The notes under the pieces: model-generated | Databases searched by the model: none | Seen by the model: the letters and a program-made list of their open reading frames with translations, nothing else | Told to the model about the DNA's origin: nothing | In this document: in pieces, positions 20,671-51,401 of the stretch | Position numbering within the stretch: position 1 is the first letter of the stretch | How the letters are laid out: every line of letters starts with the position of its first letter | NCBI RefSeq assembly: GCF_003363265.1 | Contig: NZ_QRBF01000007.1 | Location: 62,001-126,000 of the forward strand | Source: Dyella psychrodurans | GTDB lineage: Bacteria > Pseudomonadota > Gammaproteobacteria > Xanthomonadales > Rhodanobacteraceae | Length of the DNA stretch: 64,000 bases | Direction: 5' to 3' | Translations under genes and position numbers: made by a program

Positions 20671-21085
20671 GCCTGGGTGGAGCGCGCGGATTCGCCATGG
20701 CGTTCTGCGCCTCGCATGCGCTACGCGAAGATCGTTGCCGCAATGAGTAAGAAGCTGCCGGGCTTTGGCCAGTCCGCAACGGGATTGACGATGGCCAACC
20801 GACCAAATCGCCAGCGAGCCCTCTCGCACCTCTACACAAAGCCATCACGAATAGCGCGCTTTTTTGCGGTTTCCGACACTATTTCTCGCGGCACGCCGAA
20901 TACCTCGTCACGAATCCGGCAACCAAAATGGACAGTCCGCCATTTTGCGAACGGGCTTCACCCCGCAACCACAACCGCCACCCTACGCTCCCGCGGCCAC
21001 TCGGCACCCTGGGGAGGGGAGCATTTCGTCGGTTTCCTCCAACCATTTCTTTCACCGTCACTGTCTACGTGAGGAGCAACCTCCA
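20671..21085. other. Intergenic region upstream of S53 peptidase
   Basis: 415 bp with no convincing gene. It contains a small stem-loop, CAAAATGG (20924-20931) pairing with CCATTTTG (20940-20947), without a T-run. The peptidase frame is open through the last 220 bp, but the signal peptide and a GAGGAG ribosome site place its start at 21086. Confidence 0.5.
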
Positions 21086-24215: not shown

Positions 24216-26552
24216 ATGAAGTGTCCGAAGTTTTTGCTTGCAATGCTGGCATGCGCTTGCCTGGCGTTCGCAACGATCATGCCCGCGCACGCGGCCATCA
24301 ATCCTAACAACTTGGGTGCCAGCTATAACTCGCAGCAGACGCAGATCACCTTCCGCGTTTATTCCGCCAATGCCACGTACATGGTGCTTTACCTCTACAG
24401 CGCGGGCTACGGCGCACAGGAGTCGGCCACGTATCCCTTGAGCAACGTCGGCAACGGTGTGTGGCAGGTAGTGGTACCGGTTTCGTCCATTAAAACGGCG
24501 GGGATTACCGGCACGGTGTATTACGGCTATCGCGCATGGGGACCGAACTGGCCGTATAGCGCGAGCTGGACCAAAGGTTCATCGGTGGGCTTTATTTCCG
24601 ACGTGGACAGCAACGGCAATCGCTTCAATCCGAACAAGCTGCTGATCGATCCTTACACGCGCGAAATAAGCCAGGATCCGCTCAACACTCAGAACCAGGA
24701 TGCCGACATCTTCGCAACGGGCGCGACGGTCGATGCCAATTTTGGCGTCGCCTACCGCCTGATCGACAGCGGCACCTACGCACCCAAGGGCACGGTGCTC
24801 GCGCCAAGCACGCAAAGCACCGGCACCAAGCCGACGCGTGCGCAGAAAGACGATGTGATCTACGAAGTGAACGTGCGCGGCCTGACCAAGCAGGATTCGA
24901 GCATTGCTTCGCAGTATCAGGGCACGTATTACGGCGCGGGACTCAAGGCCAGCTACCTGGCGAGTCTCGGCGTGACCGCGGTCGAGTTCCTGCCGATCCA
25001 GGAAACGCAGAACGATGCGAACGACGTCGTCCCCGATTCGACGCAGAACCAGAATTACTGGGGCTACATGACCGAGGATTTCTTCGCGCCTGATCGCCGC
25101 TATGCGTACAACAAGGCAGCCGGCGGCCCGACCGCCGAATTTCAGGCGATGGTGCAGGCCTTTCACAACGCCGGTATCAAGGTCTACATGGATGTGGTCT
25201 ACAACCACACCGCCGAAGGCGGCACCTGGACCAGTACCGATCCCACGACGGCGACCGAAATCTCATGGCGCGGCCTGGACAATGCCACGTACTACGAGCT
25301 CACCACCGGCAATCAGTATTTCTACGACGACACGGGTATCGGCGCGAATTTCAACACCTACAACCCGGCCGCGCAGCAAATGATCATCGACTCGCTGTCG
25401 TACTGGAGCACGACGATGGGCGTCGATGGCTTCCGCTTCGACGAAGGGCCGATCCTCGGCAACAACTGCCTCAACCAATCCTATGAAGCGGCCGCGCCCA
25501 ATTGTCCCAACGGCGGCTTCAACTTCGATGCGTCGGATTCCAAAGTTGCAGTCAACCAGATCCTCGCCAATTTGACGGTGCGTCCGGCAAGCGGCGGCAG
25601 CGGCATCGATCTGTTCGCTGAGCCCTGGAGTGCCAGCGGCGGCGACAATCAGGGTCAGTTTCCGGCGGGTTGGTCGGAGTGGAATGGTGTTTTTGAAAAC
25701 ACCTTGCGCCAGGCGCAGAACGAACTGGGCAACATGACCATCTCGATCGGCCAGGACGCGCAGGACTTCACCGGTTCGGCGAGCATCTTCCAGGGCAACG
25801 GCCGTAATCCGTGGAACTCCACCAACTACATGGACATCCACGACGGCTTTACCCTGTTCGACATCTACTACTGCAACGGCCCGAACAACAGCCAGGGCTG
25901 GCCTTATGGCCCCTCCTCCGGCGGCAACACCACCAACTACAGTTGGAATCAGGGCGGTGCCGCGGCAGACCAGCGTCGTGCAGCACGCACGGGCTTGGCC
26001 TTCACCATGCTCTCGGCGGGCACACCCATCATGGCGGGCGGCGACGAATACCTGCGCTCCCTGCAGTGCAATAACAATCCTTACAACGTCGACTCCACGG
26101 CCAACTGGCTCAACTATTCGTGGACCTCGGATCAATCCAACTTCTACAACTTCGCGCAGCGTGCCATCGCGTTCCGCCTGGCGCATCCCGCATTGCGACC
26201 GCAGAACTGGTACACGGGCAGCCAGGTCGAATGGTGGGAACCGAGCGGCGTGCAGGCGACGACAAGTTACTGGGACAACACCAGCAACTACGCCATTGCG
26301 TACACGATCAACGGTTCGTCGTTCGGCGATGCCAATTCGATCTACATCGCCTACAACGGCTGGTCCGGCCAGGTGACCTTCACGCTTCCGCCGCCACCTA
26401 CCGGCACCAACTGGTATCGCGTCACCGATACCTGCAACTGGAACGACGGCGCCAACACCTGGGTGACGCCGGGCAATGAAACGCTGATCGGCGGCAGCGG
26501 CGCGACGTATAACCAATGCGGGCAATCGTTGCTGTTGCTGATTTCCAAATAG
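24216..26552 (+). CDS. Secreted isoamylase (glycogen/amylopectin debranching)
   Basis: A 778-residue exported GH13 enzyme hydrolysing alpha-1,6 branches. A signal peptide (residues 1-26, ending PAHAA) is followed by a CBM48-like beta domain (NNLGASYNSQQTQITFRVYSAN), the (beta/alpha)8 barrel and a C-terminal beta domain. The catalytic set is visible: nucleophile Asp409 in GFRFDEG, acid/base Glu469 in LFAEPW and Asp543 in MDIHDGF, with VYNHTAEGG as region I. The length and export match Pseudomonas amyloderamosa-type isoamylase rather than cytoplasmic GlgX. GGAGG lies ten bases before the ATG. A maltose-type operator candidate lies about 220 bp upstream. Confidence 0.93.
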   Translation: MKCPKFLLAMLACACLAFATIMPAHAAINPNNLGASYNSQQTQITFRVYSANATYMVLYLYSAGYGAQESATYPLSNVGNGVWQVVVPVSSIKTAGITGTVYYGYRAWGPNWPYSASWTKGSSVGFISDVDSNGNRFNPNKLLIDPYTREISQDPLNTQNQDADIFATGATVDANFGVAYRLIDSGTYAPKGTVLAPSTQSTGTKPTRAQKDDVIYEVNVRGLTKQDSSIASQYQGTYYGAGLKASYLASLGVTAVEFLPIQETQNDANDVVPDSTQNQNYWGYMTEDFFAPDRRYAYNKAAGGPTAEFQAMVQAFHNAGIKVYMDVVYNHTAEGGTWTSTDPTTATEISWRGLDNATYYELTTGNQYFYDDTGIGANFNTYNPAAQQMIIDSLSYWSTTMGVDGFRFDEGPILGNNCLNQSYEAAAPNCPNGGFNFDASDSKVAVNQILANLTVRPASGGSGIDLFAEPWSASGGDNQGQFPAGWSEWNGVFENTLRQAQNELGNMTISIGQDAQDFTGSASIFQGNGRNPWNSTNYMDIHDGFTLFDIYYCNGPNNSQGWPYGPSSGGNTTNYSWNQGGAAADQRRAARTGLAFTMLSAGTPIMAGGDEYLRSLQCNNNPYNVDSTANWLNYSWTSDQSNFYNFAQRAIAFRLAHPALRPQNWYTGSQVEWWEPSGVQATTSYWDNTSNYAIAYTINGSSFGDANSIYIAYNGWSGQVTFTLPPPPTGTNWYRVTDTCNWNDGANTWVTPGNETLIGGSGATYNQCGQSLLLLISK

Positions 26553-26769
26553 CGGCATCCAAGGTGGAGATAGCCGGACCGCCCGGTTATCTCCACTCTT
26601 TTCTATCGATCTTATCGAAACACTTGCGTGAGACTGACGTGCAGCAAGCGGTTGTTTTAAACCTGTGCGCAGTGCGGCACTACCTGCCAACTATGACCAA
26701 ACGATTGCACGCAGGGTCATTTTGGTCCACATTCGATCGGACGTAGGGCCGGGTGATGTGAAGTCGGGG

Positions 26770-27351
26770 ATGGATAACAAGCGGGAGAGCGCATCGGTCG
26801 TATCGTTGCCGGAAGTTCCGGCTATCGATGCCAACGACCGGGCGCACAGCTTCGATGCCTTTATTCGCGGCCAGTTTCGCGGTCTGGTCCAGTTTCTGCG
26901 TGCGCGAACGGCGACCGAACAAGACGCCGAGGATGCCGCCCAGGAAAGCATGACCAAGCTCCTGCGCTATCGCGAATCGGAGCCGCCTTCGGCGTGGAAG
27001 CAACTGCTTTATCGCATTGCCGTGAACGTTGCCCACGATCAGTTTCGCGTCTCGCAGACACACCGCAGCAAGGATCACGTCACCCTCGACGGCCTGGACA
27101 TCGCCGCGGCGGAGCATTCGCCCGAGCAGCGGGCCGTGTACGAGCAGCAAGTGGCCCGCCTCACCCAGGCCATTCTGGCGTTGCCGCCCAAATGCCAGCG
27201 CGTCTACCTGCTGAAGCGGGTGCACGGCCTGAGCCACGCCCAGATCGCCGAGCGTTGCGGCATTTCGATAAAGATGGTCGAAAAGCATCTCGCCACCGCG
27301 CTTGCGCAGCTGCGGCGCAAGGTAGGCGAATCGCCGGCGGACACGTTTTAA
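26770..27351 (+). CDS. ECF RNA polymerase sigma factor (FecI-like)
   Basis: A 193-residue sigma-70 ECF factor with region 2 (about residues 30-95, FIRGQFRGLVQFLRARTATEQDAEDAAQESM) and region 4 (about 130-185, LPPKCQRVYLLKRVHGLSHAQIAERCGISIKMVEKH). These are typical of FecI-group factors that respond to surface receptors. The start is the ATG at 26770 (MDNKRES), with GGGG just ahead; an in-frame ATG 35 codons earlier is less likely. The TAA stop overlaps the ATG of the FecR-like gene by one base, so sigma and anti-sigma are cotranslated. An STN-domain TonB receptor, the expected third partner, lies at 31433. Confidence 0.92.
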   Translation: MDNKRESASVVSLPEVPAIDANDRAHSFDAFIRGQFRGLVQFLRARTATEQDAEDAAQESMTKLLRYRESEPPSAWKQLLYRIAVNVAHDQFRVSQTHRSKDHVTLDGLDIAAAEHSPEQRAVYEQQVARLTQAILALPPKCQRVYLLKRVHGLSHAQIAERCGISIKMVEKHLATALAQLRRKVGESPADTF

Positions 27352-28364
27352 TGAACATGGACAGGTGGAACGCAAACAGGGAAACCGCGCCGGACTCGTA
27401 TGGCGAGGCCGAACAATGGTTCGTACGCCTGCTGGAGCCCGATTGCCCGGCCGAGGAACGTGCCGCGTTCGAACGTTGGCGCAACGCCGATCCCGCGCAT
27501 GCCGCGGCGTATCGCGAACTCGAGTTGGTGTGGCGGCAGAGCCTGGATGCGACGAAGCATCCCGCCGTCGCCGCCGCCGCTCGTCAATCGCTGCGGCCCG
27601 AACCCCAGACGCGTTCGCCCAGGCGCTGGCTTTTCCCTGCCCTGGCGACGGGATTCGCCGCATTGGTTGCGGTGGTTGTAGTGCCCCGCTGGCTGGCGCA
27701 CTCAAGCGAACCCGTCAGCGCAACCTACACCACCACCGCCGGACAGCAGCAGACCGTACAGCTGTCGGATGGATCATCCATCGTGCTGGACACCGACACG
27801 CAGGTGAGCGTTCGCTACAGCGCCAGCACGCGCCGCGTCGACTTGCTGCACGGACAGGCGCAGTTCTCCGTGCATGGCAATCACGCATGGCCGTTTGTCG
27901 TGCATGCACTGCATGGAACCGTCACCGCCGTCGGCACGCAATTTCAGGTGCGCGTCAACGACGGTTGCACGGATGTCGCGCTGATCCAGGGCAAGCTCGC
28001 CATCGCCACCGAGCCGCAGAACGGCACGCCGCACGATGCATCGCTGGTCGGCGGACAGGGTTTGGCGTACGACGAAAGCGGACGCATTTCACGCGTGCAC
28101 GCGATCGATCCGCAAGACGTGCAAGCTTGGACAGAAGGCAAGCTGTTCGTTCACGACTGGCGCTTGTCGGATCTCATCGACGAGATGAATCGCTACAGCA
28201 CCACCAAGCTCCAGATCGGCGATCCCTCGCTGCGCGACATTCGCATCAGCGGCGTTTTCCATACCAACGATCAGCAAACGTTCCTTGCGCTGTTGCAGCA
28301 AGGCTGGTCGATTCAGGCGAAACGCGTCGACGCGAATCAAATCGTGCTCACACATAACCGCTGA
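27351..28364 (+). CDS. FecR-like anti-sigma factor/signal transducer
   Basis: A 337-residue FecR family protein with an N-terminal DUF4880 sigma-binding region (about residues 14-65, WFVRLLEPDCPAEERAAFERWRNADPAHAAAYRELE), one membrane segment (about 92-112), then the periplasmic FecR domain (LSDGSSIVLDTDTQVSVRY to GTQFQVRV) and a C-terminal STN-like part (VHDWRLSDLIDEMNRYSTTKLQIGD). It overlaps the sigma gene stop by one base. It is expected to hold the sigma factor until the periplasmic part contacts a loaded TonB receptor. A repeat pair follows its stop. Confidence 0.92.
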   Translation: MNMDRWNANRETAPDSYGEAEQWFVRLLEPDCPAEERAAFERWRNADPAHAAAYRELELVWRQSLDATKHPAVAAAARQSLRPEPQTRSPRRWLFPALATGFAALVAVVVVPRWLAHSSEPVSATYTTTAGQQQTVQLSDGSSIVLDTDTQVSVRYSASTRRVDLLHGQAQFSVHGNHAWPFVVHALHGTVTAVGTQFQVRVNDGCTDVALIQGKLAIATEPQNGTPHDASLVGGQGLAYDESGRISRVHAIDPQDVQAWTEGKLFVHDWRLSDLIDEMNRYSTTKLQIGDPSLRDIRISGVFHTNDQQTFLALLQQGWSIQAKRVDANQIVLTHNR

Positions 28365-28374
28365 ATGCCCTAAC

Positions 28375-28526
28375 GCTCGTCATTCCGGCGCAGGCCGGAA
28401 TCCAGTGTCGATATCGTTTGATGATTACGAAGCGTTAGCGCAAACATTGTGCGCAAGTCGTGTGCAGCACATTGCACTAATTGAGACTGCTGTCACTGGA
28501 TTCCGGCCTGCGCCGGAATGACGAGC
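28375..28526. repeat. Inverted pair of REP-like palindromes
   Basis: Unit 1 (28375-28407) contains CATTCCGGCGCAGGCCGGAA then TCCAGTG; unit 2 (28494-28526) is its near-exact reverse complement, starting CACTGGATTCCGGCCTGCGC. Each unit is itself palindromic (CCGGCGCAGGCCGG), and 86 bp separate them. This is the tail-to-tail layout of bacterial REP doublets (BIMEs), often moved by a RAYT transposase; none is in the window. It lies between fecR-like and S53 genes in a 400-bp gap that otherwise holds no gene. Confidence 0.85.
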
Positions 28527-28764
28527 ATTTAGCGTTGTTTGTGCAGGTAGGGGTTTCTTTTTTACTCGCGTCTTATTTGCTGGCGACGCTGCATTGTGGT
28601 CGATGGACACGGACGTTAGGGGACGTCGACTTCTGAGGGTCTTCGAGTGTCGCCAGACATTTCCTGATGAGTTCAGATGCCGCACGCGTGTGTGGCGATA
28701 ACTTCTGCATGGGGCTTTCGAGCCGCTTCGGGCTCGTTTGTCTCAAAAAAATGGGAGCACATGA

Positions 28765-31266
28765 ATGTCTAGCAGTAATCGTTTCGTGGGGAGTCACAAA
28801 TTGCTGTTGCCGACGGCCTTGTCGTTGGCCTTGTTGTCCATGTCGGCGCACGCCGGCAATAACTTCGCGGCGACGCGCACGCACGCGGGCATCCAGAACA
28901 ACGGTACCAACGTTTCCACGCTGGTCATGACGGGTCATCCGTCGATCGACGCTTCGCAGATCATGCCGCTGGAGCAGAGCAAGCCGCTGCATGTAGAAGT
29001 GAGCCTTAATCTGCGCAACGTCGATCAGTTGCAGAGCTTCCTCGCTTCGGTGAATCAGCCGGGCAGCGCGAACTATCACCGCTTCCTGACGCCGGCGCAG
29101 TTCAAGGCGCAATACGCACCGACGGATGCGCAAGTGCAAGCCGTGGTCGCGCACCTGAAGCAGAACGGCTTCACGCACATCACCGTGTCGCCTAACAACA
29201 TGCTGGTGTCGGCCGACGGTACGGCCGCGGGTGCCAACGCGGCATTCAACGCCAACATGAAGACCTTCAGCTTCAAGGGCAAGCAACACTTCGCCAACGC
29301 ATCCGATGCCACCGTGCCGCAGTCGCTGGGCGGCATCGTGGACGGCGTGCTCGGCCTGCAGGATTACGCCCGGCCGCACGTGATGTCCCATCGCATCGGC
29401 AGCGATGCCAAGACACAGGCCACCTCCGGCAGCCAGGTCGGGCATCAACCGACGGATTTCCCCAAGATCTACGACGTGGGCAGCACGCCCGCTGCGTCCA
29501 ACACCACGGTCGGCATCATCACCTGGGGTGACATGACGCAGACTATCACCGACCTCAACACCTTCACCAAGAATGCAGGCCTCGCCACCGTCAACACGGC
29601 CACCGTCGCCGGCGGCACCGGCACCTTGGCCAACGATGGCGACGACGGCGAATGGGCGCTGGACAGCCAGGACATCGTCGCTGTTTCCGGCGGCGTGAAG
29701 CAGCTGATTTTCTACGCCGCGATCAACGGCGACACCCAGGACAGCGGCCTCACCGATGCCACCATCACTGCCGCGTACAACAAGGCCGTGACCGACAACG
29801 TGGCGAAGGTGATCAACGTATCGCTAGGCGAAGACGAAACCGCCGCCAACAATTCCGGTACGCAGGCCGCGGACGACAAGGTGTTCGCACAGGCCGTCGC
29901 GCAGGGCCAGACGTTCTCGATCGCCGCGGGCGACGCGGGCGTGTACCAGTGGTCCAGCGATCCGACCGAAGGTGCGCCTGGCTACATCGCCAACTCCAGC
30001 GGCACCGTCCAAATCGACCTGAGCCATTACGGTGTGAGCGAACCGGCGACATCGCCGAACGTGGTGGCCGTGGGCGGCACCACGCTGAGCACCAGTGGCA
30101 CCACGACCTGGGCAGGCGAAACGGTGTGGAATGAAGGCCTCGCCGCGGTCGATCCGAACAACGGCGACAACAACGAACGCCTGTGGGCGACCGGCGGCGG
30201 CGTGAGCTTGTTCGAAGCCGCACCCGCGTGGCAGACCTCGGCACTCGGCTCGTCGGTGACCAAGCGCGAATTGCCGGACGTGGCGTTCGATGCGGCATCG
30301 TCCACCGGCTCGATCATCGTCGCCAACGGCCAGACCGGTCAGCAGTACGGCGGTACCAGCCTTGCTTCGCCGATCTTTGTCGGTATCTGGGCGCGCATCG
30401 AATCGGCGAACAACAATTCGCTCGGCCTGCCGACGCAGAACATGTACACCTACTTCCCGAAGGACGCCACGCCGCTGCATGACGTGACCTCGGGCAACAA
30501 CGGTTACAACGGCTACGGCTACAACGCCGCCGCGGGTTACGACAACACCACCGGCTGGGGCAGCCTGGACATCTCCAAGTTCAGCGCTTATGTCACCAAG
30601 TACTGGGGCGGTTCGAGCAGCGGCGGTGGCGGCACGCCACCGCCCGCCGGCAATCCGGTGGCGAACTTCACGGATACGGTGAGCAACCTGGCCGTGAGCT
30701 TCACCAACAGCTCCACGGATACGGGCGGCACGATCAGCTCGTACGCGTGGAATTTCGGCGACAGCGGCACGTCGACGTCGGCCAGCCCCAGCCACACCTA
30801 TGCGGCTGCCGGCACTTATACGGTCACGCTGACGGTCACCGACAACACCGGCGCCACCAACACCAAGACAGCCTCGGTGACGGTGACGAGCAGCAGTGGC
30901 GGCGGCGGTGGCAGCAACGGCGTGTTCAGCAACAACAAGGCTGTCGTGATCAACGACAACGCCACCATCACCAGCAGCATTGCGGTGACCGGCGAGTCGG
31001 GCAACGCACCGTCGACGCTCAAGGTGCATGCCAACATCACGCACAACTGGTCGGGCGACCTCACCATCGAGATCGTCGCGCCGAACGGTTCCTACGCGGT
31101 GCTGCAGAATCCGGACTATGGCGACGACGGCAATATCAACACCACCTGGACGGTGAATGCGTCGTCGGTGACGGCCAACGGCACCTGGAAGCTGAAGGTC
31201 ATCGACAACGATCCGCAGTACTACGGCGATTACGGCACGCTCAACAGCTGGAGCCTGACGTTCTGA
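28765..31266 (+). CDS. Secreted S53 peptidase with PKD and P domains
   Basis: An 833-residue multidomain protease: signal peptide (about residues 1-30, ending SAHAGN), pro-kumamolisin activation domain (about 60-205), S53 catalytic domain (about 225-610), a glycine-rich linker, a PKD beta-sandwich (about 630-712, with SYAWNFGDSGTS and VTLTVTDNTGA), a second Gly/Ser linker and a C-terminal P/proprotein-convertase-type domain (about 718-833, with HNWSGDLTIEIVAPNGS). The catalytic residues are Glu296 and Asp300 (GEWALDSQD), an Asp in AAGDAG, and Ser532 in GGTSLASP. It lies between a sigma/FecR pair and their probable STN receptor. A terminator follows at 31318. Confidence 0.94.
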   Translation: MSSSNRFVGSHKLLLPTALSLALLSMSAHAGNNFAATRTHAGIQNNGTNVSTLVMTGHPSIDASQIMPLEQSKPLHVEVSLNLRNVDQLQSFLASVNQPGSANYHRFLTPAQFKAQYAPTDAQVQAVVAHLKQNGFTHITVSPNNMLVSADGTAAGANAAFNANMKTFSFKGKQHFANASDATVPQSLGGIVDGVLGLQDYARPHVMSHRIGSDAKTQATSGSQVGHQPTDFPKIYDVGSTPAASNTTVGIITWGDMTQTITDLNTFTKNAGLATVNTATVAGGTGTLANDGDDGEWALDSQDIVAVSGGVKQLIFYAAINGDTQDSGLTDATITAAYNKAVTDNVAKVINVSLGEDETAANNSGTQAADDKVFAQAVAQGQTFSIAAGDAGVYQWSSDPTEGAPGYIANSSGTVQIDLSHYGVSEPATSPNVVAVGGTTLSTSGTTTWAGETVWNEGLAAVDPNNGDNNERLWATGGGVSLFEAAPAWQTSALGSSVTKRELPDVAFDAASSTGSIIVANGQTGQQYGGTSLASPIFVGIWARIESANNNSLGLPTQNMYTYFPKDATPLHDVTSGNNGYNGYGYNAAAGYDNTTGWGSLDISKFSAYVTKYWGGSSSGGGGTPPPAGNPVANFTDTVSNLAVSFTNSSTDTGGTISSYAWNFGDSGTSTSASPSHTYAAAGTYTVTLTVTDNTGATNTKTASVTVTSSSGGGGGSNGVFSNNKAVVINDNATITSSIAVTGESGNAPSTLKVHANITHNWSGDLTIEIVAPNGSYAVLQNPDYGDDGNINTTWTVNASSVTANGTWKLKVIDNDPQYYGDYGTLNSWSLTF

Positions 31267-31317
31267 TCGGCGAGTTCCACGTTTTCGGCGCGCAGGGACG
31301 CGTGCCAGGGATGCGAA

Positions 31318-31345
31318 GCCCGGCCTCACCGGCCGGGCTTTTCTT
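31318..31345 (+). terminator. Intrinsic terminator after S53-PKD-P peptidase
   Basis: GCCCGGCC (31318-31325) pairs with GGCCGGGC (31331-31338) around TCACC, followed by TTTTCTT. It separates the peptidase from the TonB receptor, which therefore needs its own promoter. Confidence 0.85.
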
Positions 31346-31432
31346 ATGACTGCTGCGACCTTGCGGGTACCCTGCCTTGCCCTATGATCACTCTGGCGAG
31401 CCAGCGTGCGATGTATACGCGCCAGGAGAGGG

Positions 31433-34400
31433 ATGGGAAAGCCGGGTCTACGACGCAGTCATGGGAGAGGGGCCTCAGGCACTTCTTTCCGTGCCGCTGC
31501 GCGCGTCGTTGCCCTGCATGCATGTCTGTCGGGATGCGCCGCAACGTGGAAGCGGACCGTCGGCATGATGGCGTGTGGTGCGAGCCTCATGGTTCCGGTG
31601 TCCGTTGTCGTTGCTTCTGCAACCGAGGCTCCGCGTCATCTCTACGCCATTCACGCCGGCGATCTTCGCGCCGCGCTCGATGCCCTGGCATCGCAAGGCG
31701 ACATTCAAGTTGTCTATTCGCCCGATCTCGCCGCGGGTAAGACCACGCAGGGCATTTCGGGGCGCTTCACGCCCGTCGATGCATTGCGGCAGCTTTTGGC
31801 GGGTACCGGCTTGACGTGGAAGATGGTGAACGACGCCACGTTTGTGTTGGAACCGTCACTGCCGTTTCATCCTGCCCGATCCATACCGCTCTCGCGAAAC
31901 GTCCCCGCCGCGCCGAGAACGCTGGATGCCGTCAACGTCAGCGGATCGTTGATCGGCAACGCCGCCATCCAGACGGCCACGCCGACGTACACCATCACTT
32001 CGGAAGACATCAAGGTGCGCGGATTCACCAGCATTGCCGATGTGCTGGAGAATTCCGTGCTGGCAACCGGCTCCGTGCAAGGCCCGCAGAATGCGGGCAG
32101 CTTTACGCAAGGCGCTCAACCCATCAGTCTGTTTGGCCTGAGTCCGCAGTTCACGCTGATTCTTGTCGATGGCAAACCTCTTGCCGACTTCGGGCGTCTT
32201 TACAACGGCACGATCAACTTCACCAGCATCTCCAATCTTCCGATAGCCATCGTCGACCATATCGACGTGATGCCCGGGGGCGCGTCGTCGATCTACGGCT
32301 CGCAAGCGATCGGCGGCGTGATCAACATCGTGACCAAGTCGCGCGTGGACGGCGGCGAGTTATCGGTACGCACAGGCTCCTTTTCCGATGGCGGCGGCGC
32401 CAATCAGCGCATCAGTTTCGTTTACGGCCATGCGTTCGGAAGGCTTCGCATCGTAAGCGCCGCGGAATTCGACAGCGCATCGCCTATCTGGGGTTATCAA
32501 CGCCCGTTGACCGCGGGTACCGACTCCGGCCCCGCAGGTGCGACACCGCCAAGCGTGCAGGCTGGCATATTGGATTTCGGTACGGCCAATACCTACACAG
32601 GCAACCCTTTGGGCTACCTCAGTCCGCCGGCGGGTTGCGACAGCCATCTTTTCGGAAACAGCACAGCACTTGCCAACAGCAACGTGCCCGGTCAGCCGGG
32701 ACAGTACTGCGGTTCGCGCAAGCTGGACGGATACGTCACCTATAGCAACCAGAGCCGCAGCTATGACGGCATGCTCAAGCTCGATTACCGGGCCAGCGAG
32801 CATGTTCGCCTGTACAGCGACGTGATGCTGAACTGGCAACAGCAGCGTTGGTTTCCAGGCGCTTCCGCCTGGTTTCCCGATGACTTGCCGCAAGGGGCCG
32901 TCGAGGATGCCGCCACGGGCCACTATCTTTACCCGGAAAAATTCTTCGCGCCCGAGGAAATGCCCGGTGGCGCGGCGGGCCAGATGTATCGGCAGGATGA
33001 TCTGCTTTATCAGGCCGATGTGGGCGCCAACGGCCGTCTCGGCGACTCCGACTGGGATTGGGACATCTATTACCTGCGCACCGGCGATCGCACGGAAGTA
33101 GTGGAACCGCTTGCGATCGAAAAACGCATCGATGCGTTTTTCGGCGGCATCCTGGGCCCCGTTGTCGGCGTCGATCCGGCAACCGGCCTCAATATGTACA
33201 ACCCGAACTACAAGGCGTTCTTCTCGCCGATCTCGCCTGCGCACTATGCCGGGTTCACGCAAGGCGTCGGCGAATTCAGCAACACATGGATCAACAACAC
33301 GCGTGCGACGATCAGCAACGCTTCGCTATTCACGCTGCCCGGCGGCGATGCAGGTTTTGCAGCACTGATCGAAAGCGGCGGCGAGGCGTGGTACGAACCC
33401 GTCAACCCGCTGTATACCCAGGGATCGGTGTTCGAACACGCCGCCACCGGCGGCGGCGGACAACGTTCGCATGCCGCGTCGGCATTCGAATTGAATCTTC
33501 CGCTGTTGTCGCTGTTGACGCTGGATGTCTCCGGTCGTTACGACCATTACGCGCTGGACAAGGGCGGCGATAATCACAAGTTCACGTACAAGGCCGGCGT
33601 AGAGTTCCGGCCCGTCGACAGCTTTCTGGTTCGCGGCAACTACACCACGTCGTTCAAGGCTCCGGACCTGTCATCGATCTTTCTTGGTCCGACCGATTAC
33701 TACACGACTGTCACCGACTACTATCAATGCGCAATCGCGCATGCCGCCGCCTGCGGCAGCGCTTACCAATACGGTGTCAAAGGCACGACACTGCCCAATC
33801 CCGGGCTTCAGCCGGCCACCGCGCAAAGCTGGACAGTGGGAACCGTGTGGTCCCCCGTCGACAATCTCAGCTTCAGCCTCGACTACCTGCATATCGCGAT
33901 CCGCGACGAAGTCGTTCAGCAAGATCTCGACCGGTTGATACGCACGGACGCGCAATGCCTTCTCGGCCAGCTCAATGCTGATTCGGCGCAGTGCGTGGCC
34001 ATCACCAATCCCGTCGACGGGCAAGTGCAACGCGCATTGGGCAACGGCCCGATCACCGGCGTCACGACGTACTATGCCAACCTCGCCAACGAAGTGACCA
34101 AGTCGATGGTTGGCAGTGTGCGATATCAGTTCTCGCCATGGCATATCGGCAGCTTCAGCGTGCAGCTCGACTACAACGACATGCTCAAGCACGAATATCA
34201 GTTGGCCTCGGGCCAGGCACCCATCGACAACCTGGCCGATCCGCAATACAGCTCCGAGTTCAAGAACATCGCCAGCGGCAGTATCACCTGGACGAGTCCG
34301 GGCGGACGCTGGACAAGCACTCTTTATGGGCACCGCTATGGACCGTCGCCCAACTACATCGCGGCAAACGACGGCGCGGGCGTCCCAGGCTCGGGACATC

Positions 34401-34621
34401 TGTCGCCGTGGATCACGTTCAACGGAAGCGTGACTTATCGACCTGCGAGGAATGTCGAGCTATCCATGTTGGTCAACAACATCGCCAACAAGATGCCGCC
34501 TTTCGATCCGACTTACGTTTCCTATCCGTACTTCAATTACGACAACTACAACGTCTATGGAAGGGAAATCTTGCTGCAGCTGGATTTGAAGTTCGGCGGA
34601 CAATCGCATCCGCTACGATGA
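31433..34621 (+). CDS. TonB-dependent receptor with STN signalling domain
   Basis: A 1062-residue outer-membrane receptor. After a long N-terminal export region (first hydrophobic stretch about residues 45-65, MMACGASLMVPVSVVVAS) it has a secretin/TonB short N-terminal (STN) domain (about 70-125, LYAIHAGDLRAALDALASQGDIQVVYSPDLAAG). The plug follows (about 150-290, with LDAVNVSG, FTLILVDGKPLADF and GGVINIVTK) and then a 22-strand barrel ending in LQLDLKFGG. STN domains contact FecR proteins in surface signalling, and a sigma/FecR pair lies 3 kb upstream. The ATG at 31433 is preceded by AGGAGAGGG; a GTG nine codons earlier is the alternative. The ligand is unknown. Confidence 0.9.
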   Translation: MGKPGLRRSHGRGASGTSFRAAARVVALHACLSGCAATWKRTVGMMACGASLMVPVSVVVASATEAPRHLYAIHAGDLRAALDALASQGDIQVVYSPDLAAGKTTQGISGRFTPVDALRQLLAGTGLTWKMVNDATFVLEPSLPFHPARSIPLSRNVPAAPRTLDAVNVSGSLIGNAAIQTATPTYTITSEDIKVRGFTSIADVLENSVLATGSVQGPQNAGSFTQGAQPISLFGLSPQFTLILVDGKPLADFGRLYNGTINFTSISNLPIAIVDHIDVMPGGASSIYGSQAIGGVINIVTKSRVDGGELSVRTGSFSDGGGANQRISFVYGHAFGRLRIVSAAEFDSASPIWGYQRPLTAGTDSGPAGATPPSVQAGILDFGTANTYTGNPLGYLSPPAGCDSHLFGNSTALANSNVPGQPGQYCGSRKLDGYVTYSNQSRSYDGMLKLDYRASEHVRLYSDVMLNWQQQRWFPGASAWFPDDLPQGAVEDAATGHYLYPEKFFAPEEMPGGAAGQMYRQDDLLYQADVGANGRLGDSDWDWDIYYLRTGDRTEVVEPLAIEKRIDAFFGGILGPVVGVDPATGLNMYNPNYKAFFSPISPAHYAGFTQGVGEFSNTWINNTRATISNASLFTLPGGDAGFAALIESGGEAWYEPVNPLYTQGSVFEHAATGGGGQRSHAASAFELNLPLLSLLTLDVSGRYDHYALDKGGDNHKFTYKAGVEFRPVDSFLVRGNYTTSFKAPDLSSIFLGPTDYYTTVTDYYQCAIAHAAACGSAYQYGVKGTTLPNPGLQPATAQSWTVGTVWSPVDNLSFSLDYLHIAIRDEVVQQDLDRLIRTDAQCLLGQLNADSAQCVAITNPVDGQVQRALGNGPITGVTTYYANLANEVTKSMVGSVRYQFSPWHIGSFSVQLDYNDMLKHEYQLASGQAPIDNLADPQYSSEFKNIASGSITWTSPGGRWTSTLYGHRYGPSPNYIAANDGAGVPGSGHLSPWITFNGSVTYRPARNVELSMLVNNIANKMPPFDPTYVSYPYFNYDNYNVYGREILLQLDLKFGGQSHPLR

Positions 34622-34958
34622 GCAGCATGAAGCTCTTTCTTCCATGAGAACGTAAGTTATGTGCAAGCAACACGCACACGTCAATTTCACGAAAGCATGA
34701 CCTCACAGTGCAGGGATTAGCAGCAAAGTGATGTCGCCATGCCGCGATACGTCACTTTGTCATGCCGCTATTTGCGTGCAGACACGGCAATACCGGGCAA
34801 AAAGGGCATCCAGGGCTTGGCACGGCACATGCTTTATCTCCATCGACCCTTTTTATGCGAGACGGCGGCCACTTTTTCGACCCGGGCGGGACTCAGGCAT
34901 CACCCGGCCAAAAAGGGAAAGAAGCGGGCGGCACCCAGGTTGTTGGAGACATCGAACC
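34622..34958. other. Intergenic region
   Basis: 337 bp between the TonB receptor and the deacetylase. No gene, RNA or clear repeat was recognised. The deacetylase frame is open through most of it, but the protein domain and a usable ribosome site (TTGGAGAC) begin only at its 3' end. Confidence 0.45.
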
Positions 34959-35747
34959 ATGGCCTTGTTAAGAACAAACACCTCTGAAACTCACATTTTC
35001 CATCGGCACATGCTGTCCGTCGCGCTTCTGCTGCTGTGGATCGTATGCCTGGTACTTACCGTCGAACGCAATACGCAAGCGCCGCTTTTTGTCCTGCACG
35101 AGAACAGCAGCCGGGTCACGCGTCTTGCACAGCATGATTGGCGCCGCGCAAGCGATTGGCTTGCCGGAAGGAAATATGCCGTGCTGACGTTCGACGACGG
35201 CCCTTATGGGCAAGGCGTGGATGAGCAGATTCTTGATGTGTTGCGCAAACATCATGCCCACGCCATATTCTTCGTGATCTGCAATCACCTGGACAAGGCT
35301 GATCCGGGACTGCTCAGCGAATTCGAGCGCAGTGGCCATGTGATCGGCAATCATAGCTACGATCACCTGAAACTCACGAAGCTTTCGGCCCCCGAGCTTC
35401 ATCAACAGATCGAAGGATGCAGCGAACGCATAGCGATGGCTACGGGTCATCGGCCAGCTTACTTTCGCCCACCTTGGGGCATAACATCAGCTGTCGTTAA
35501 GCAAGCCGCCGAATCGTCCGGCATGCAACAAGTGCTGTGGAATGCAAACAGCCAGGACAGCTGGCAGAACAAGCCCGAGCAGATTCTCCATTGGAGCCTC
35601 GAGCAGACTGAAGATGAGTCAATTCTGCTGATGCATAGCAAGCCGACTACCGTTGCGGTGCTCGATGAGACCTTGACCAAGCTGGAGGAGCGTGGATTTG
35701 AGTTTGTCCTGCCCGGTCAGCTTTCAGCAGAACGCTCCTACGACTGA
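34959..35747 (+). CDS. Membrane-anchored polysaccharide deacetylase (NodB domain)
   Basis: A 262-residue CE4-type deacetylase with an N-terminal membrane anchor (about residues 17-37, MLSVALLLLWIVCLVLTVE) and a NodB domain. The catalytic Asp and first metal Asp are Asp79-Asp80 in TFDDGPYG, the metal histidines are in HSYDH (HxxxH), and the conserved RPPWG follows. These enzymes remove N- or O-acetyl groups from chitin, peptidoglycan or exopolysaccharide in the periplasm. The ATG at 34959 was preferred over an upstream in-frame start because the anchor follows immediately. It converges with the histidine acid phosphatase gene. Confidence 0.88.
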   Translation: MALLRTNTSETHIFHRHMLSVALLLLWIVCLVLTVERNTQAPLFVLHENSSRVTRLAQHDWRRASDWLAGRKYAVLTFDDGPYGQGVDEQILDVLRKHHAHAIFFVICNHLDKADPGLLSEFERSGHVIGNHSYDHLKLTKLSAPELHQQIEGCSERIAMATGHRPAYFRPPWGITSAVVKQAAESSGMQQVLWNANSQDSWQNKPEQILHWSLEQTEDESILLMHSKPTTVAVLDETLTKLEERGFEFVLPGQLSAERSYD

Positions 35748-35777: not shown

Positions 35778-37103
35778 TCAATGCACTGAACGCGATCCCG
35801 ATGCTTGCGCAATAAGTTTGGCCAGGCGATCCAACCGGCAATCGTAACGTGGCCCTGCACTGCTGCAACCCGGTATGAATATCGGGGCGATCTGTGGGGG
35901 ATGCGCCATATCCAGAGCAGTGCTGTTTCGCATCTGTTCCATGCTTTGGCTGGCGTAATAAGCGTTCACGATGTAGCGCGCGGGAACCCCGGTGCTGCGC
36001 AACTCGAACACCAAGGCGCCGCCTGTGAATGCTGGATCGGCTGGTTGTTCCGGAAGCATCCAGTGCAGGTTGAGCAGGCCTGCGAGCGTTTCGATATTCG
36101 TATCGTGACCGACGAGGAAGACCATCTTTGATTGTGCGGCGCCTATCGCATTGGGTAGCGCATGTGAATCGGTGGCCTGTTGCAATGTCGCCAGGATGCG
36201 AGTGGCCAGTTGCCCCGCGTAGGCCCTGGCGATAATCGGGGTGTGCAGCTCGATGTCGCTGAACGATGTATGCAGGGTCAGCAACTGGCCCAACTGAATG
36301 GGTGAAATGCGTCCCCACGCCACGTCGGACATGGGCATCCCCTGCACATATTCCAGAAAGAAGTTTTCCGCGAACGTGCTCGCGTTATGCAGCGGCGACT
36401 TGATGCTGACCAGGCCGTCTCCATGCGTTGCGGTAATGGAAGCAGGCTGGTCCAGCAGTATCTTTTTGCCAGCAGCCTGTGCGTCGCCGCAAGTGTGCGG
36501 AGCGCAATCGAGCAATATCGCTTGCATCTGCTTCAAGAGACCGGCATGGGCCAATGCCAGCCGCGCCGGATCGCCGCCGACACGTCCCAGTACCGCAGCG
36601 ACTGCCTCGGCACGATCATCATCGCTGGCGCCCGATGCGGCGTGCGAAAACAAGGCATCGGATCCTTGTTTCGCGGACGGATGAACATCGACGGCACAAC
36701 CCGGATCGAAGCCATCCATCAGGCCATGCGCGGACTCCAGCGTTCGCTCTTCGTCGTCTGCAACGACGTAGACGGACGATGTCAGGCATCCGTGATCGGA
36801 CAACAATCCGGCACGTGCATAGTAGGCACGGTACCAATGACCCATCAGACTCATGAGCTGCTTGCCGTGTGGCGTAAGGTAGCCCGGCGGTACCGGCCAC
36901 GTCGGCCAGGGTTTGCTGGAGAAGGCGTCGAGCGATTCGGGCGCGGTCGTGGGCGAGCGCACGCCGTGACGGCTGAGCACCACGACCAGTCGCAGGTCCC
37001 CAGGATTCTGCGTATCGGACGCATGGGCCATACCGCAGAGGCCGAATAGCGCGAGCAGGCATACACGGCCTTTGCGAAACCATGTGCGCATACGAAGCCT
37101 CAT
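35778..37103 (-). CDS. Periplasmic histidine acid phosphatase (phytase/AppA-like)
   Basis: A 441-residue branch-2 histidine phosphatase with a signal peptide (about residues 11-28, ending AHAS). The catalytic RHGxRxP is at residues 45-51 (SRHGVRSPT) and the proton-donor HD motif is in FLVGHDTNIETL in the last third. Scattered cysteine pairs (CLTSS, CAVD, CAPHTCGD, CSSAGPRYDC) suggest periplasmic disulfides. The family includes E. coli AppA phytase and glucose-1-phosphatase Agp. The ATG at 37103 has GGAG seven bases upstream. It is last in a minus-strand set with a beta-propeller and a TonB receptor, so release of phosphate or sugar from phosphate esters taken up at the surface is plausible. 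Confidence 0.9.
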   Translation of the reverse strand: MRLRMRTWFRKGRVCLLALFGLCGMAHASDTQNPGDLRLVVVLSRHGVRSPTTAPESLDAFSSKPWPTWPVPPGYLTPHGKQLMSLMGHWYRAYYARAGLLSDHGCLTSSVYVVADDEERTLESAHGLMDGFDPGCAVDVHPSAKQGSDALFSHAASGASDDDRAEAVAAVLGRVGGDPARLALAHAGLLKQMQAILLDCAPHTCGDAQAAGKKILLDQPASITATHGDGLVSIKSPLHNASTFAENFFLEYVQGMPMSDVAWGRISPIQLGQLLTLHTSFSDIELHTPIIARAYAGQLATRILATLQQATDSHALPNAIGAAQSKMVFLVGHDTNIETLAGLLNLHWMLPEQPADPAFTGGALVFELRSTGVPARYIVNAYYASQSMEQMRNSTALDMAHPPQIAPIFIPGCSSAGPRYDCRLDRLAKLIAQASGSRSVH

Positions 37104-37148
37104 GTGCCGATCTCCAGAAAATAGGGCCATCCGACGATCAGGCGCGCA

Positions 37149-38150
37149 TCACGGCGCGCCGACTACCAACACACCGAACGACGCCTGGGAGGCACCCTGC
37201 CCTTTCTCGGCGACATCCGGCGCTGCCAGATAGACGTGGTGCGTACCTTCGTCCACGGCCAGCGTGCGTGCGCCCTTTGCGGTGGCGACATTCGCGATCA
37301 CCGCGTAATGGTCGGCGTCGTCTTGCCTGATGACGGTCAGGGTGCCGTCGGCGTTGGAGCTGTACACCACACCCGCTCGCGCGTCATAGCCCGCGGCGTC
37401 CGGATCGTTGCCGATCGGAAGTACGGCGACGCGATGGCCGTCGTTGGCATCCATCACTACAAGATGCTGGTTGGCGCAGGCGGAGAACAGGCGCGCGTGC
37501 TTCACGTCGATGGCGAGCCCGGTCGGGCCTTCGCACGGCGTCAGCGACCATGACGCGATGACCTTGCCGGCATGTGCGTCGATTTCGGCGATCTTCGATG
37601 TGTCTTCGAGGTTGACGTAGATGTGCCCATGGTTGTCCGTGACCGCGAATTCGGGCTTGCCGGGCAACATCACCGATCCGGCTTCCTTTTGCGTCACCGG
37701 ATCGATCTCGCTTGCGCTGTTGCTGTGACCGTTGAAGGTCCACAGTTTGCCGCTCGCTTCGTCGAACAACATCGCATCCGGGCCTTTGCCAGTGATGGCA
37801 ATCGCGGGCTGAGGCTTCAGCGTGGCCAGGTCGAAGGGCATCACGCTGTTGCCGTGGCCGTTACTCACGTAGCCGCGATGCTGTTGGGCTACGAGTACGA
37901 CGCGGTGCGCGCCGATGGCACCGGGCACTTCGCCGACCAGCTTTCCGCTCGACGTGTCCATCACCATGACGCGATTGCCGCGCGCGATATAGAGGCGGTT
38001 CGTGCCTGCATCGAAGGTCAGGTAATCCCATTTACCCTCACCGCCGAGCACGTATCGTTGCAATACGCCGTAGGTCGAGGGTGCTGCCGCGGCCATACAG
38101 GCGGCGGAGGTCGCCATCAGACTCGCGAGCACGAGAGCCATTCGCTTCAT
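37149..38150 (-). CDS. Exported YncE-like beta-propeller protein
   Basis: A 333-residue protein with a signal peptide (about residues 1-22, ending CMAAAAP) and a seven-bladed YVTN/YncE-type propeller. Repeated blades show the pattern LYIARGNRVMVMDTSSGKLVGEV, YVSNGHGNSVMPFDLATLK and IYVNLEDTSKIAEIDAHAGKVI. No catalytic motif is visible; YncE-type proteins are binding platforms, in some cases for nucleic acid or quinone-linked partners. The gene lies 45 bp upstream of the acid phosphatase and 99 bp downstream of the TonB receptor, all on one strand, a combination often kept together in Xanthomonadales and Sphingomonads. Its role here is unknown. Confidence 0.85.
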   Translation of the reverse strand: MKRMALVLASLMATSAACMAAAAPSTYGVLQRYVLGGEGKWDYLTFDAGTNRLYIARGNRVMVMDTSSGKLVGEVPGAIGAHRVVLVAQQHRGYVSNGHGNSVMPFDLATLKPQPAIAITGKGPDAMLFDEASGKLWTFNGHSNSASEIDPVTQKEAGSVMLPGKPEFAVTDNHGHIYVNLEDTSKIAEIDAHAGKVIASWSLTPCEGPTGLAIDVKHARLFSACANQHLVVMDANDGHRVAVLPIGNDPDAAGYDARAGVVYSSNADGTLTVIRQDDADHYAVIANVATAKGARTLAVDEGTHHVYLAAPDVAEKGQGASQASFGVLVVGAP

Positions 38151-38249
38151 GGATGCTTTCCTTTTCAGTTATTGCTTGAGGAGATGCAGGGAGATCGACA
38201 TGGCAGGCCGGATGTCCGTCCGGCTTGCCCGGCATTCGCGCAACATCGA

Positions 38250-41144
38250 CTACAGGTGGATGCGCACGCCGGCGGTGAAGGTCTGGTCGTAGAACTCGCG
38301 CTGGATGGGTCGGTTGTTGGCCGCCGTCTCGGTGAACCGCAACTTGGTGTTGGTCAGATTCTTGGCGCCGAAGTACACCGAAAAGGTGTCGTTGAAGGCG
38401 TAGCTGGCGCCGAAGTCCAGCGACGTGCGCGCCGAGGAGTACTGATCGGCGTAAACGTTGGCGGGTGTTCCGTCCGCATTGGTGTATAGCGGACCGCCGA
38501 CGGTGAAGATGTTCTTGCTCTCGTAGTAGGCGCCGAGATCCAGGCGAAGACCGGCATAATCGTAAGTGAGCGCGAAGTTGGCCGTGTTGCGCGACGTGGA
38601 CGGCAACAGCGAATACACGCCAGGATGAATCTGTATGCGCGAGTCCACATAGGTGTAATTGGTATTCACGCCAAGCCCGCTCAACACGCCCGGCAGCCAC
38701 CGGAAACGATCCACGTACACCAGCTGCACGCCCCGCGCCCAGGCGGAGGAAATATTTTCGTAGCTGCTGAACGTGACCTGGGTACCGGGTGCGAAGACAT
38801 CGAGAATACCGACAGGGTTGGTCACCGTCTGGATGACGCCGGTTTGCACGATGTAGTTGGTCAATTGCTTGTCGAACACGCCCGCGTACGCCAGGCCGCC
38901 TTCCGGCAGGTAGTATTCCAGCGACATGTCGAAGTTATCGCTGTAGGTTGGCTTGAGCGTGGGATTGCCTTGGGACACCACATCGTTCACGTCGTCCACT
39001 TGTGTCGATGGCGTGACCTGCTGGAATCCCGGCCGGGCAATCGTCTTCGAATACACGACGCGACCGATCAGGTCGGTATCGAAACTGTATTTCGCCTGCA
39101 CGGTGGGAAAGAAATTGCCGTAGTTGCGATTGACGATGTTGGGCGAGTAGCTCACCAGCGCGCCATTGCTCGTCAGGATGTTCAAGCCTTCGTACTGCGC
39201 GTTGGTCAACTCGTAACGCACGCCGGCCAGCAGGCTCAGTTTTTCCATGGGCTGGAATGCGTATTCGCCGTAGCCCGCGTAGATATTCTCGCTGTCGTGA
39301 CCATGGGACTGGAGATCGCCCAGGAAGTCATTGGCCGAATTTTCGACGAACTGCCCGGGATTGGCACTGAAATAGTTGATCAGCGCCTGCGGGTTGATGA
39401 GTGGGCCGATGCTGTAGTGATTGTCGTAATACGTGATCGGCTGACCCATGGCAAACTGCGAGAACGGCAATGCCGCAGGGTTGTAGTCGAAATTCTGCTG
39501 ACTGTTGTTGCGCTCCCGCATCCGCGCATTCACCCCGAATTTGAGGTACTCGTTGTTGCTCTGGGCGAAGAAACTGGTGGGGATGGTGACGTTGTCGCCG
39601 ATGCTGTATTCCTGATCGTGATCGTGCTCGGTGCCGTTGCTGAAATCGTTCAGCGTGTATCCGTTCGGGTTGGTCGGATTCTGCCCTTGCAGGATGGAAT
39701 AGCTGGGATAGTTCGGGTTGGTGATGTTGTCGTACGAGACGATGGAGGCTCCCGATCCATCCGGATTGGAAGGATTGGGCGTCCCGTTGGCGAAATTGAT
39801 GCCGTAGTCGTAAGGCTTGTTGTACGAGCCGATCGACATCGCCAGATGGTAATCCGTACGCCAACTGCCGAAGTTGTTCTGGCCGCCGAGTATCATCACG
39901 CGCGAGTCGATCATTTCCTTTTCGTGCTCCGCGGACTTGGTGTAGGTGGCGTCGTCGATCAAGCCGTTCGGGTTATTCGGATCCGCCACCGGCGCCCCTG
40001 CGAAATCGAGTATCAGGCTGTCCCGGCTTTTCCGTTCGGTATAACCCGCGTCGAAGTAACGCGCATACCACTTGTCATCGTCGTCGGGCTGGAAATCCAG
40101 TTCGGCGCCGTAGCCATGGCGCGTGCGCTGATAGTTGTAGTAGCGCTGATCGAGATCGGTGAATGCCTTGTCCGGGACGCCCGATCCTTGTTGGTCGACG
40201 TAACCCGCTTCCACGTCGTCGATGCCGCGATGATCCTGGTAGTAATTGACCGTGCCGATAAAGGTGAAGGGTTTGTAGTTCTTGTCCGGGCCGAAGCGAA
40301 AGCCGCCGGTGAGCTCGTAATCCTTGATCGGCGTATCGCGCAGATTTTCCAGACCGGTGCCGAGCTGCAGATCGACGAACTGATCCCGATCCCTGGGCAT
40401 GGTCTTGGAGGTGATCTCGACGGTGCCACCCAGCGCTTCGGCATCCTGCTCGGGGAGATTGGTGTTGGTAATCGTCAGCGCGCCGACCAGGCCCGCAGGA
40501 ATCGAATCGAACGCCACCGCGCGACCGCCGCCGGTAGGCGTGGAAACGTTGGTGGGCATCAGGCGCACACCATCGAAGGTCGTGCTGTTGAGGTCCGCAT
40601 CCAGGCCGCGGATGTTCACGAAACGGCCTTCGCCCGTATCGGTTTCGAGCGAGACGCCCGGCAAGCGGCGCACCGCTTCGCCGGCGTTGACGTCCGGCAA
40701 TCGTTCGATCGCGGCGGCCGGCTGCACGAAGATCATGTTGGGCGCCTGCTGCTGCACGGCGCGCGCTTCCATATCCGCAGTCACGGGTGCACTGACGTTG
40801 ATCTGGTCCAGCGACTTGACGTCGGCGCCGAGCACAAAGTTCTCCATGGCGGGTGTGCCGGCGTCAACGGTAATTTTGCGTTGTAGCGCGCGCTGTCCGT
40901 CTACCTTGACCACAAGGGTATACGCGCCGGGAGCAACGCCTTGCAGCTGGTAGTTGCCGTTGGCGTCGGTGGTCGTCACTGCGCGGATCTCACGGATCTC
41001 CACGCGCGCCCCCGATATCGGCTTGTGTCCCGTGGCGATTTCCACATGTCCGCTCAGCGCGACCGAATCGGCGGCATTCACCATGATCGGCGCGGCCAGC
41101 GCGATCATTCCCAAAGCAAGCCTGCAAGCCTGTGCAAGTGACAT
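38250..41144 (-). CDS. TonB-dependent receptor with carboxypeptidase-like N-domain
   Basis: A 964-residue outer-membrane receptor. A signal peptide (about residues 1-25, ending VNAAD) is followed by a carboxypeptidase-regulatory-like beta domain (about 28-105, SGHVEIATGHKPISGARVEI), a plug (with AIERLPDVNAGEAVRRLPGV, FVNIRGL and LGGTVEITSKT) and the barrel, ending FTAGVRIHL. The plug pattern is that of the TonB-Xanth-Caul group. It has no STN domain, so it does not signal through FecR; instead a two-component system sits just upstream on the same strand. The ATG at 41144 follows GAGGG. Together with the phosphatase downstream, uptake of a phosphorylated ligand is inferred. Confidence 0.92.
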   Translation of the reverse strand: MSLAQACRLALGMIALAAPIMVNAADSVALSGHVEIATGHKPISGARVEIREIRAVTTTDANGNYQLQGVAPGAYTLVVKVDGQRALQRKITVDAGTPAMENFVLGADVKSLDQINVSAPVTADMEARAVQQQAPNMIFVQPAAAIERLPDVNAGEAVRRLPGVSLETDTGEGRFVNIRGLDADLNSTTFDGVRLMPTNVSTPTGGGRAVAFDSIPAGLVGALTITNTNLPEQDAEALGGTVEITSKTMPRDRDQFVDLQLGTGLENLRDTPIKDYELTGGFRFGPDKNYKPFTFIGTVNYYQDHRGIDDVEAGYVDQQGSGVPDKAFTDLDQRYYNYQRTRHGYGAELDFQPDDDDKWYARYFDAGYTERKSRDSLILDFAGAPVADPNNPNGLIDDATYTKSAEHEKEMIDSRVMILGGQNNFGSWRTDYHLAMSIGSYNKPYDYGINFANGTPNPSNPDGSGASIVSYDNITNPNYPSYSILQGQNPTNPNGYTLNDFSNGTEHDHDQEYSIGDNVTIPTSFFAQSNNEYLKFGVNARMRERNNSQQNFDYNPAALPFSQFAMGQPITYYDNHYSIGPLINPQALINYFSANPGQFVENSANDFLGDLQSHGHDSENIYAGYGEYAFQPMEKLSLLAGVRYELTNAQYEGLNILTSNGALVSYSPNIVNRNYGNFFPTVQAKYSFDTDLIGRVVYSKTIARPGFQQVTPSTQVDDVNDVVSQGNPTLKPTYSDNFDMSLEYYLPEGGLAYAGVFDKQLTNYIVQTGVIQTVTNPVGILDVFAPGTQVTFSSYENISSAWARGVQLVYVDRFRWLPGVLSGLGVNTNYTYVDSRIQIHPGVYSLLPSTSRNTANFALTYDYAGLRLDLGAYYESKNIFTVGGPLYTNADGTPANVYADQYSSARTSLDFGASYAFNDTFSVYFGAKNLTNTKLRFTETAANNRPIQREFYDQTFTAGVRIHL

Positions 41145-41300
41145 GTTCAAACCCTCGGATCGGTGGATGCGCCGCGCAGAAGGCAAGTGCGGCGCGTACC
41201 TTTTCGACACTAAGCGCGAGGGATGACAGCGAGAATGCAGCAGCTATACGAATCGGTAAGCTTCACTCGGATGCGTGATTTCTGCGGAAATATGTCGCGT

Positions 41301-51166: not shown

Positions 51167-51401
51167 TGGATGTACTCCAGGGAAGGGAGGGCGGAGCACC
51201 CAGGCCGCATGCCGCATTCATGGCAGTTGTGCGGCGTGCAAAACCCAGTTGCGATCGCCTTTGGCGACCGCATGCTCTGCTTACAGGCAAACTTGCGATG
51301 ACAACAAACAGCCGGTGCTTGGGGAAAGGCGCCAGCTGTCCGGAAAGATTAGTTGTACGGCTTGTTAAGATCGATACAGATAGGCGAATGGCTTGATACG
51401 C

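Follow-up and report, generated by a model that had tools for sequence, protein, structure and literature searches.

A sedolisin-type protease kept beside a FecIRA-type signalling locus in Dyella psychrodurans and its relatives

Signalling of the FecIRA, FoxIRA and PupIRB type is described in two sources mainly for iron carriers (PMC9249621, PMC12772443). In Ralstonia, the PrhA/PrhI/PrhR system has an STN-type receptor with FecI and FecR homologs and a non-iron signal, plant contact; the relevant excerpt mentions no linked peptidase, whereas the locus described here has one (PMC1790865). In lasso isopeptidase clusters, a peptidase and a TonB receptor stand together with a sigma/anti-sigma pair, and the function of isopeptidase-containing lasso peptides has been called enigmatic (PMC9266682). 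The RagAB system of Porphyromonas gingivalis, a proteolytic species, is TonB-dependent and is reportedly implicated in protein uptake (PMC11817032). When we searched the open-licence PMC literature for FecIR systems linked to a peptidase or a sedolisin, the lasso literature was the sole direct parallel among the papers listed, which does not imply absence in print.

The soil bacterium Dyella psychrodurans carries, in the window (the whole stretch of 64,000 nucleotides that we analysed), genes for an ECF sigma factor, a FecR-type anti-sigma factor, a sedolisin-PKD-P protease and an STN TonB receptor, in this order (Table 1). Like FecIRA, FoxIRA and PupIRB, the locus has adjacent genes for an ECF sigma factor and a PupR-type anti-sigma factor together with an STN receptor, but it differs from them in the linked protease gene between the anti-sigma and receptor genes. 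Fur control of the sigma gene is usual in FecIRA iron systems. Neither of two Fur box consensus sequences was found upstream here, nor at FecA-like control loci, so that the search had no positive control in this genus. With the lasso isopeptidase clusters of the AtxE2 type it shares a TonB receptor with a sigma/anti-sigma pair, but its peptidase belongs to S53 rather than S9, and PF13471 had no match in the D. psychrodurans genome. Because the protease is not an AtxE2-like S9 enzyme and PF13471 is missing, we excluded identity with such a cluster, although related cassettes resemble one. RagAB, a barrel plus a lid protein, to our knowledge has no sigma/FecR/STN trio, in contrast to the Dyella locus.

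Table 1. Features of the locus, in window coordinates
Feature	Position	Strand	Basis
Sigma gene, candidate promoter (TTGCAC, 17 bases, CACATT)	26705..26733	+	Conserved in aligned upstream regions, 14 loci
ECF sigma factor, 193 aa	26770..27351	+	Pfam Sigma70_r2, r4_2; TIGR02937
FecR-type anti-sigma factor, 337 aa	27351..28364	+	DUF4880 + FecR; PupR-type structures
Inverted repeat between fecR and protease, 36-base arms, 97% complementary	28372..28529	none	
Conserved leader of the protease gene	28591..28764	+	Alignments of 12 loci, nhmmer model
S53 (sedolisin) protease, 833 aa, predicted secreted; PKD and P domains	28765..31266	+	
Terminator-like hairpin 3' of the protease	31315..31341	+	Terminator scan; consensus scan also
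Conserved box CTTGCCCTATGATC; may be a sigma-dependent promoter element for the receptor	31376..31389	+	
STN-bearing TonB-dependent receptor, 1062 aa counted from ATG 31433	31433..34621	+	

Genes of the locus

A preliminary description had read the four genes as a sigma factor, a FecR-like protein, an S53-PKD-P protease and an STN receptor, and Pfam domains and structure matches confirmed this. The sigma gene, with Sigma70_r2 and r4_2 domains, starts at an ATG common to all 15 loci compared, and its expected overlap with the anti-sigma gene was found as a one-base overlap (TAATG at 27349-27353). The term FecI-like survives in part: the general ECF model TIGR02937 scored above its cut-off and the gene has a FecR context, but the FecI models were far below their cut-offs, and the label rests on context. 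The anti-sigma factor has DUF4880 and FecR domains and a membrane span read by eye, and it matched PupR-type structures (6ovk, E 1.5e-15; 5cam, weakly, E 0.0011). The receptor has STN, Plug and barrel domains in Pfam, as had been proposed for a gene about 3 kb downstream of fecR; the distance from the fecR end to the receptor start is about 3.07 kb. Its N-terminal part aligns with the FecA, FemA and FoxA transducers, and aligned starts favoured ATG 31433 over the mechanical start at 31406. The structure model of the receptor had a mean pLDDT of 40, with the STN part alone confident. The locus has the testable core features of FecIRA, and it probably works like a FecIRA system.

In the protease, Pfam recognized Pro-kuma_activ, PKD and P_proprotein domains; the catalytic part, which has no listed Pfam domain, matched sedolisin (1ga1) at E 2.5e-106. 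All 15 cassette proteases have E296, D300, D390 and S532, and we take these residues to be the Glu/Asp/Asp/Ser catalytic residues of sedolisin, so that both the prodomain and the catalytic set of the S53 family are present. The protein is probably secreted, and an S53 enzyme with PKD and P domains presumably resembles a secreted digestive enzyme. The label 'acid protease' comes from what we assume for the family, low-pH activity being a prediction. Across the D. psychrodurans genome we counted 3 FecR, 4 STN and 10 S53-prodomain matches. A second S53 protease with a Pro-kuma_activ prodomain lies 6 kb upstream (20864-22816), and it has an ortholog in the same region in G014.

An Rfam scan of 26000-35000 gave no match over the gathering score. 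The inverted repeat between fecR and the protease gene is REP-like by look and probably lies outside the signalling system. The sigma gene promoter, read from the upstream alignment alone, is a candidate; a sigma-70 consensus scan reported no promoter, and the candidate was absent from its list. Elsewhere in the window, a minus-strand group at 35778-41210 encodes a histidine acid phosphatase that looks phytase-like, then a beta-propeller protein, a TIGR01782 TonB receptor and finally a histidine kinase, and is perhaps a locus for uptake of phytate or organic phosphate. RND-type efflux is represented by a complete outer membrane/fusion/pump set at 9916-15640 and by a second pump gene at 47972-51217.

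Linkage in relatives and peptidases beside related cassettes

We searched 16 genomes of the genus, D. psychrodurans included, and added G149 separately. FecR orthologs (63-75% identity) were present in 13 of the 16, as were receptor orthologs (65-76% identity) among the matches listed; in 11 of these 13 genomes, again among the matches listed, a protease 80-91% identical to that of the locus lay between the two. With G149 included, the sigma/FecR/receptor trio was in order in all 14 orthologous loci and the four-gene order was kept in 12, while the genes flanking the loci vary. The arrangement is therefore beyond chance. The case said to speak against a link, relatives that keep the trio without the protease and with iron genes instead, was found in part, in that the protease is missing from two of the 14 loci (G007 and G010), where fecR and the receptor gene are 165 and 236 bases apart, respectively. 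Isoamylase and deacetylase orthologs surround the G007 locus. Because G007 and G010 sit in different subgroups of the FecR+receptor tree, the protease was probably lost in two separate events. In the three genomes without the trio, no S53 protein among the matches listed was more than 52% identical to the locus protease; non-cassette S53 proteins closely related to the locus protease, among the matches listed, occurred in G002, G001 and G015 at 56-67% identity.

The linkage also extends to more distant loci. G002 has a second, diverged copy (C17) with an S53 gene in the same position, G035, from another genus, has the identical gene order, and G091 is rearranged to receptor-sigma-fecR-S53. In the midpoint-rooted FecR+receptor tree, these three appear to cluster with the loci of Dyella, and G066 and G054, both without S53, join the same cluster; G054 and some other loci stop at contig edges. 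Protease distances followed those of FecR (Mantel r 0.84 over 15 loci, 0.46 within the 12) and those of the receptor (0.91 and 0.77, respectively). The protease is an evolutionarily kept partner of the trio.

We then considered 23 sigma/FecR/receptor cassettes outside the ortholog set, from which G149 was excluded as a member of that set; an STN match was present in each of 21 related cassette loci. A peptidase from our library lay within two genes of 17 of the 23 cassettes and within one gene of 15. Its type varied: S53 in G035, G091 and G002 (C17); S9 in G024, G046 and, on the opposite strand, G066; AtxE2-like S9 in G102 (three), G108 and G010 (one each); M16 in G089, after a thioredoxin-like gene; M28 in G081; a trypsin-like (S1) enzyme in G022; and S8 in G057 and G077. 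In a G024 cassette, an M1 peptidase lies between fecR and the receptor gene. No library peptidase was found within two genes in G018, G043, G063, G019, one G108 cassette and G054, whose cassette is truncated by a contig end.

With the same library, a peptidase was found at 0 of 20 STN-less TonB receptors and at 1 of 20 loci taken at even spacing. Compared with these, the 17 of 23 gives Fisher p values of 2e-7 and 5e-6, respectively, which overstate the case because the library was drawn partly from case cassettes and the cassettes are not independent. The control receptors were about every fifth among the matches listed, with an STN match in 0 of 20. Pfam scans of 20 neighbours from 12 of these 20 loci, several of them mutually orthologous, found no peptidase; glycosidases were present at 6 of the 12. 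In a remaining set of 20 loci (15 other FecR matches and 5 from a class-wide search), 4 had a library peptidase (p 0.11 against 0 of 20), or 5 if an S8 found by Pfam is added (10 neighbours at 8 of the 20 loci scanned). The class-wide search had found a FecR match at E 1e-38 in 5 of 369 genomes, D. psychrodurans included. Given these lower counts, the peptidase link depends on clade: it is strong near the Dyella cassette clade and weak farther out.

For the lasso-like cassettes, AtxE2 was the best solved-structure match of the peptidases in G108 (E 8e-49), in G102 (two tested, E 4e-44 and 4e-47) and in G010 (E 2e-21), and PF13471 matches lay about 5 kb or less from these cassette regions in all three genomes. 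A row of sigma/FecR/receptor/AtxE2-like cassettes next to a PF13471 match, at about 141-181 kb of G102 C16 (L123, L220), has the look of a region for multiple lasso peptides.

Among the matches listed, 12 STN-less receptors were 50-58% identical to the locus receptor. Downstream of three of them, from three genomes (L196, L197, L198), are genes for a proline racemase and an S53 protease, a row that could serve the uptake of proline- or hydroxyproline-rich peptides. Glycan-acting neighbours occur instead or additionally at 4 of the 12: a rhamnosidase beside L202 and L203, a PNGase A-type gene beside L205 and an alpha-galactosidase on the other side of L198.

Transcription units and upstream elements

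In 12 of the 13 protease loci, a terminator-like hairpin, weak in some cases, lies between the protease and receptor genes, compared with 13 of 130 shuffled sequences; neither of the two loci without the protease has one. In the gap between fecR and the protease gene, such hairpins occurred in 6 of 13 loci (22 of 130 when shuffled). The hairpin between protease and receptor led us to reject a one-operon model.

The box CTTGCCCTATNATC lies 43 bases 5' of the receptor start codon, and 13 of 15 loci retain 12 or more of its 14 bases, the exceptions being G149 and G002 (C17). Its core TGCCCTATNATC occurs once in the D. psychrodurans genome and 0-3 times in the other genomes of the genus. We regard the box as a candidate for the element through which transcription of the receptor gene would depend on a sigma factor. 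A matrix of the receptor box found nothing above shuffles before the sigma genes, or before the proteases in 12 of 13 loci; the exception was the G014 protease, whose upstream region scored 12.2 against a shuffle maximum of 7.1. The preliminary description had suggested a search for a promoter motif shared by protease and receptor; at 12 of 13 loci the receptor box is no such motif. Beyond the ortholog set, the L126 receptor alone approached such scores (10.2). The second G002 copy (C17) was excluded from the upstream alignments and the matrix but was scanned with it.

The protease gene is preceded instead by a leader of about 170 bases. Besides the 12 loci on which it was built, the nhmmer model of this leader matched upstream of the proteases of G091 and G035, of a second S53 gene in G091 and, at E 1e-6, of the D. 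psychrodurans S53 gene L016, which lies on another contig far from FecR genes. For the leader, a consensus fold was obtained in which covariation is weak, double changes being present at 3 of 17 pairs. A conserved, possibly structured leader is thus common to cassette and non-cassette S53 genes.

Since the protease gene has its own leader, found also before non-cassette S53 genes, and its own terminator, but no receptor box, it appears to be an independent unit. Judged from these sequence elements, protease and receptor most likely form separate transcription units, and a protease transcribed alone, from its leader to its terminator, would probably not be driven by the receptor promoter. Sigma control of the protease, if any, would be indirect or act via an unrecognised motif. 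The view of sigma/FecR, protease and receptor as one unit is therefore not supported, given the terminator-like hairpin, the protease-specific leader, the lack of the receptor box before 12 of 13 proteases and the two loci without the protease.

Ligand, protease and alternative explanations

The explanation that we prefer, at about an even chance of being right, is a FecIRA-type system for a peptide or glycopeptide ligand, with a linked but separately transcribed protease. The receptor would bind an extracellular ligand, its STN domain would contact the periplasmic part of FecR, and the contact would release the sigma factor, which would turn on the receptor gene from its own promoter at the candidate box. 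The ligand would most likely be a peptide or glycopeptide, and the secreted sedolisin may produce or finish off such peptides. A peptide ligand is plausible because peptidases of several unrelated families adjoin related cassettes; a glycopeptide would fit both the peptidase and the glycan-acting neighbours. The peptide idea of the preliminary description is reasonable: it gains from the conserved linkage, the matching protease distances and the varied peptidases near related cassettes, but loses from the weaker link farther out.

A stronger form of that hint, in which the sigma factor controls both protease and receptor and the released peptides are the imported inducer of a closed positive loop, is unlikely. 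In its favour, 12 of 14 loci have the protease placed between fecR and the receptor gene, and an M1 peptidase occupies the equivalent slot in G024, but a shared upstream motif is absent at 12 of 13 loci, a terminator separates the two genes, and non-cassette S53 genes carry the protease leader too. That an unrelated protease sits beside a canonical carrier system, for iron or otherwise, its linkage being hitch-hiking in an S53-rich genome, we hold to be quite improbable. With 10 S53 prodomain matches in the D. psychrodurans genome, an S53 neighbour is easily come by in this genus, and two loci lack the protease. An S53 gene also lies close downstream of a FecA-like sigma/FecR/receptor system in 9 of the 16 genus genomes (L136-L144), the other seven, including D. 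psychrodurans (L068), having none nearby; S53 genes have thus settled near FecR systems repeatedly, which can be read either way. Against hitch-hiking, related cassettes swap the peptidase type yet keep a peptidase near, and no Fur box was found, although the FecA-like control loci are also without one.

We give little credence to the proposal that, on the pattern of lasso isopeptidase clusters, the receptor imports a peptide natural product of the cell itself or of its neighbours, which the protease degrades rather than produces. The AtxE2-matching peptidases beside the G102, G108 and G010 cassettes, with PF13471 near, offer a precedent, but the D. psychrodurans genome has no PF13471 match, and the S53 enzyme with its PKD and P domains presumably has a digestive role outside the cell. 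Hardly probable at all is a protease that acts within the signalling path by cutting the receptor signalling domain or FecR: two relatives have the trio without the protease, and the peptidases beside related cassettes come from unrelated families, but in the Fox system the anti-sigma factor is reported to undergo proteolysis and the signalling domain of FoxA to be cleaved (PMC11637429).

Beyond the preferred FecIRA-type reading of this locus, we tentatively suggest, giving it somewhat less than an even chance, that a clade of FecIRA-type systems within the bacterial family is a general peptide-sensing module, a single chassis re-paired with S53, S9, AtxE2-like S9, M1, M16, M28, S8 and S1 peptidases. 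If so, the swaps of peptidase would match different protein or peptide sources, and the lasso isopeptidase clusters would be a special case. A protease-linked STN system in which the peptidase type varies could then provide a rule by which the ligands of orphan STN receptors are assigned from genomes.
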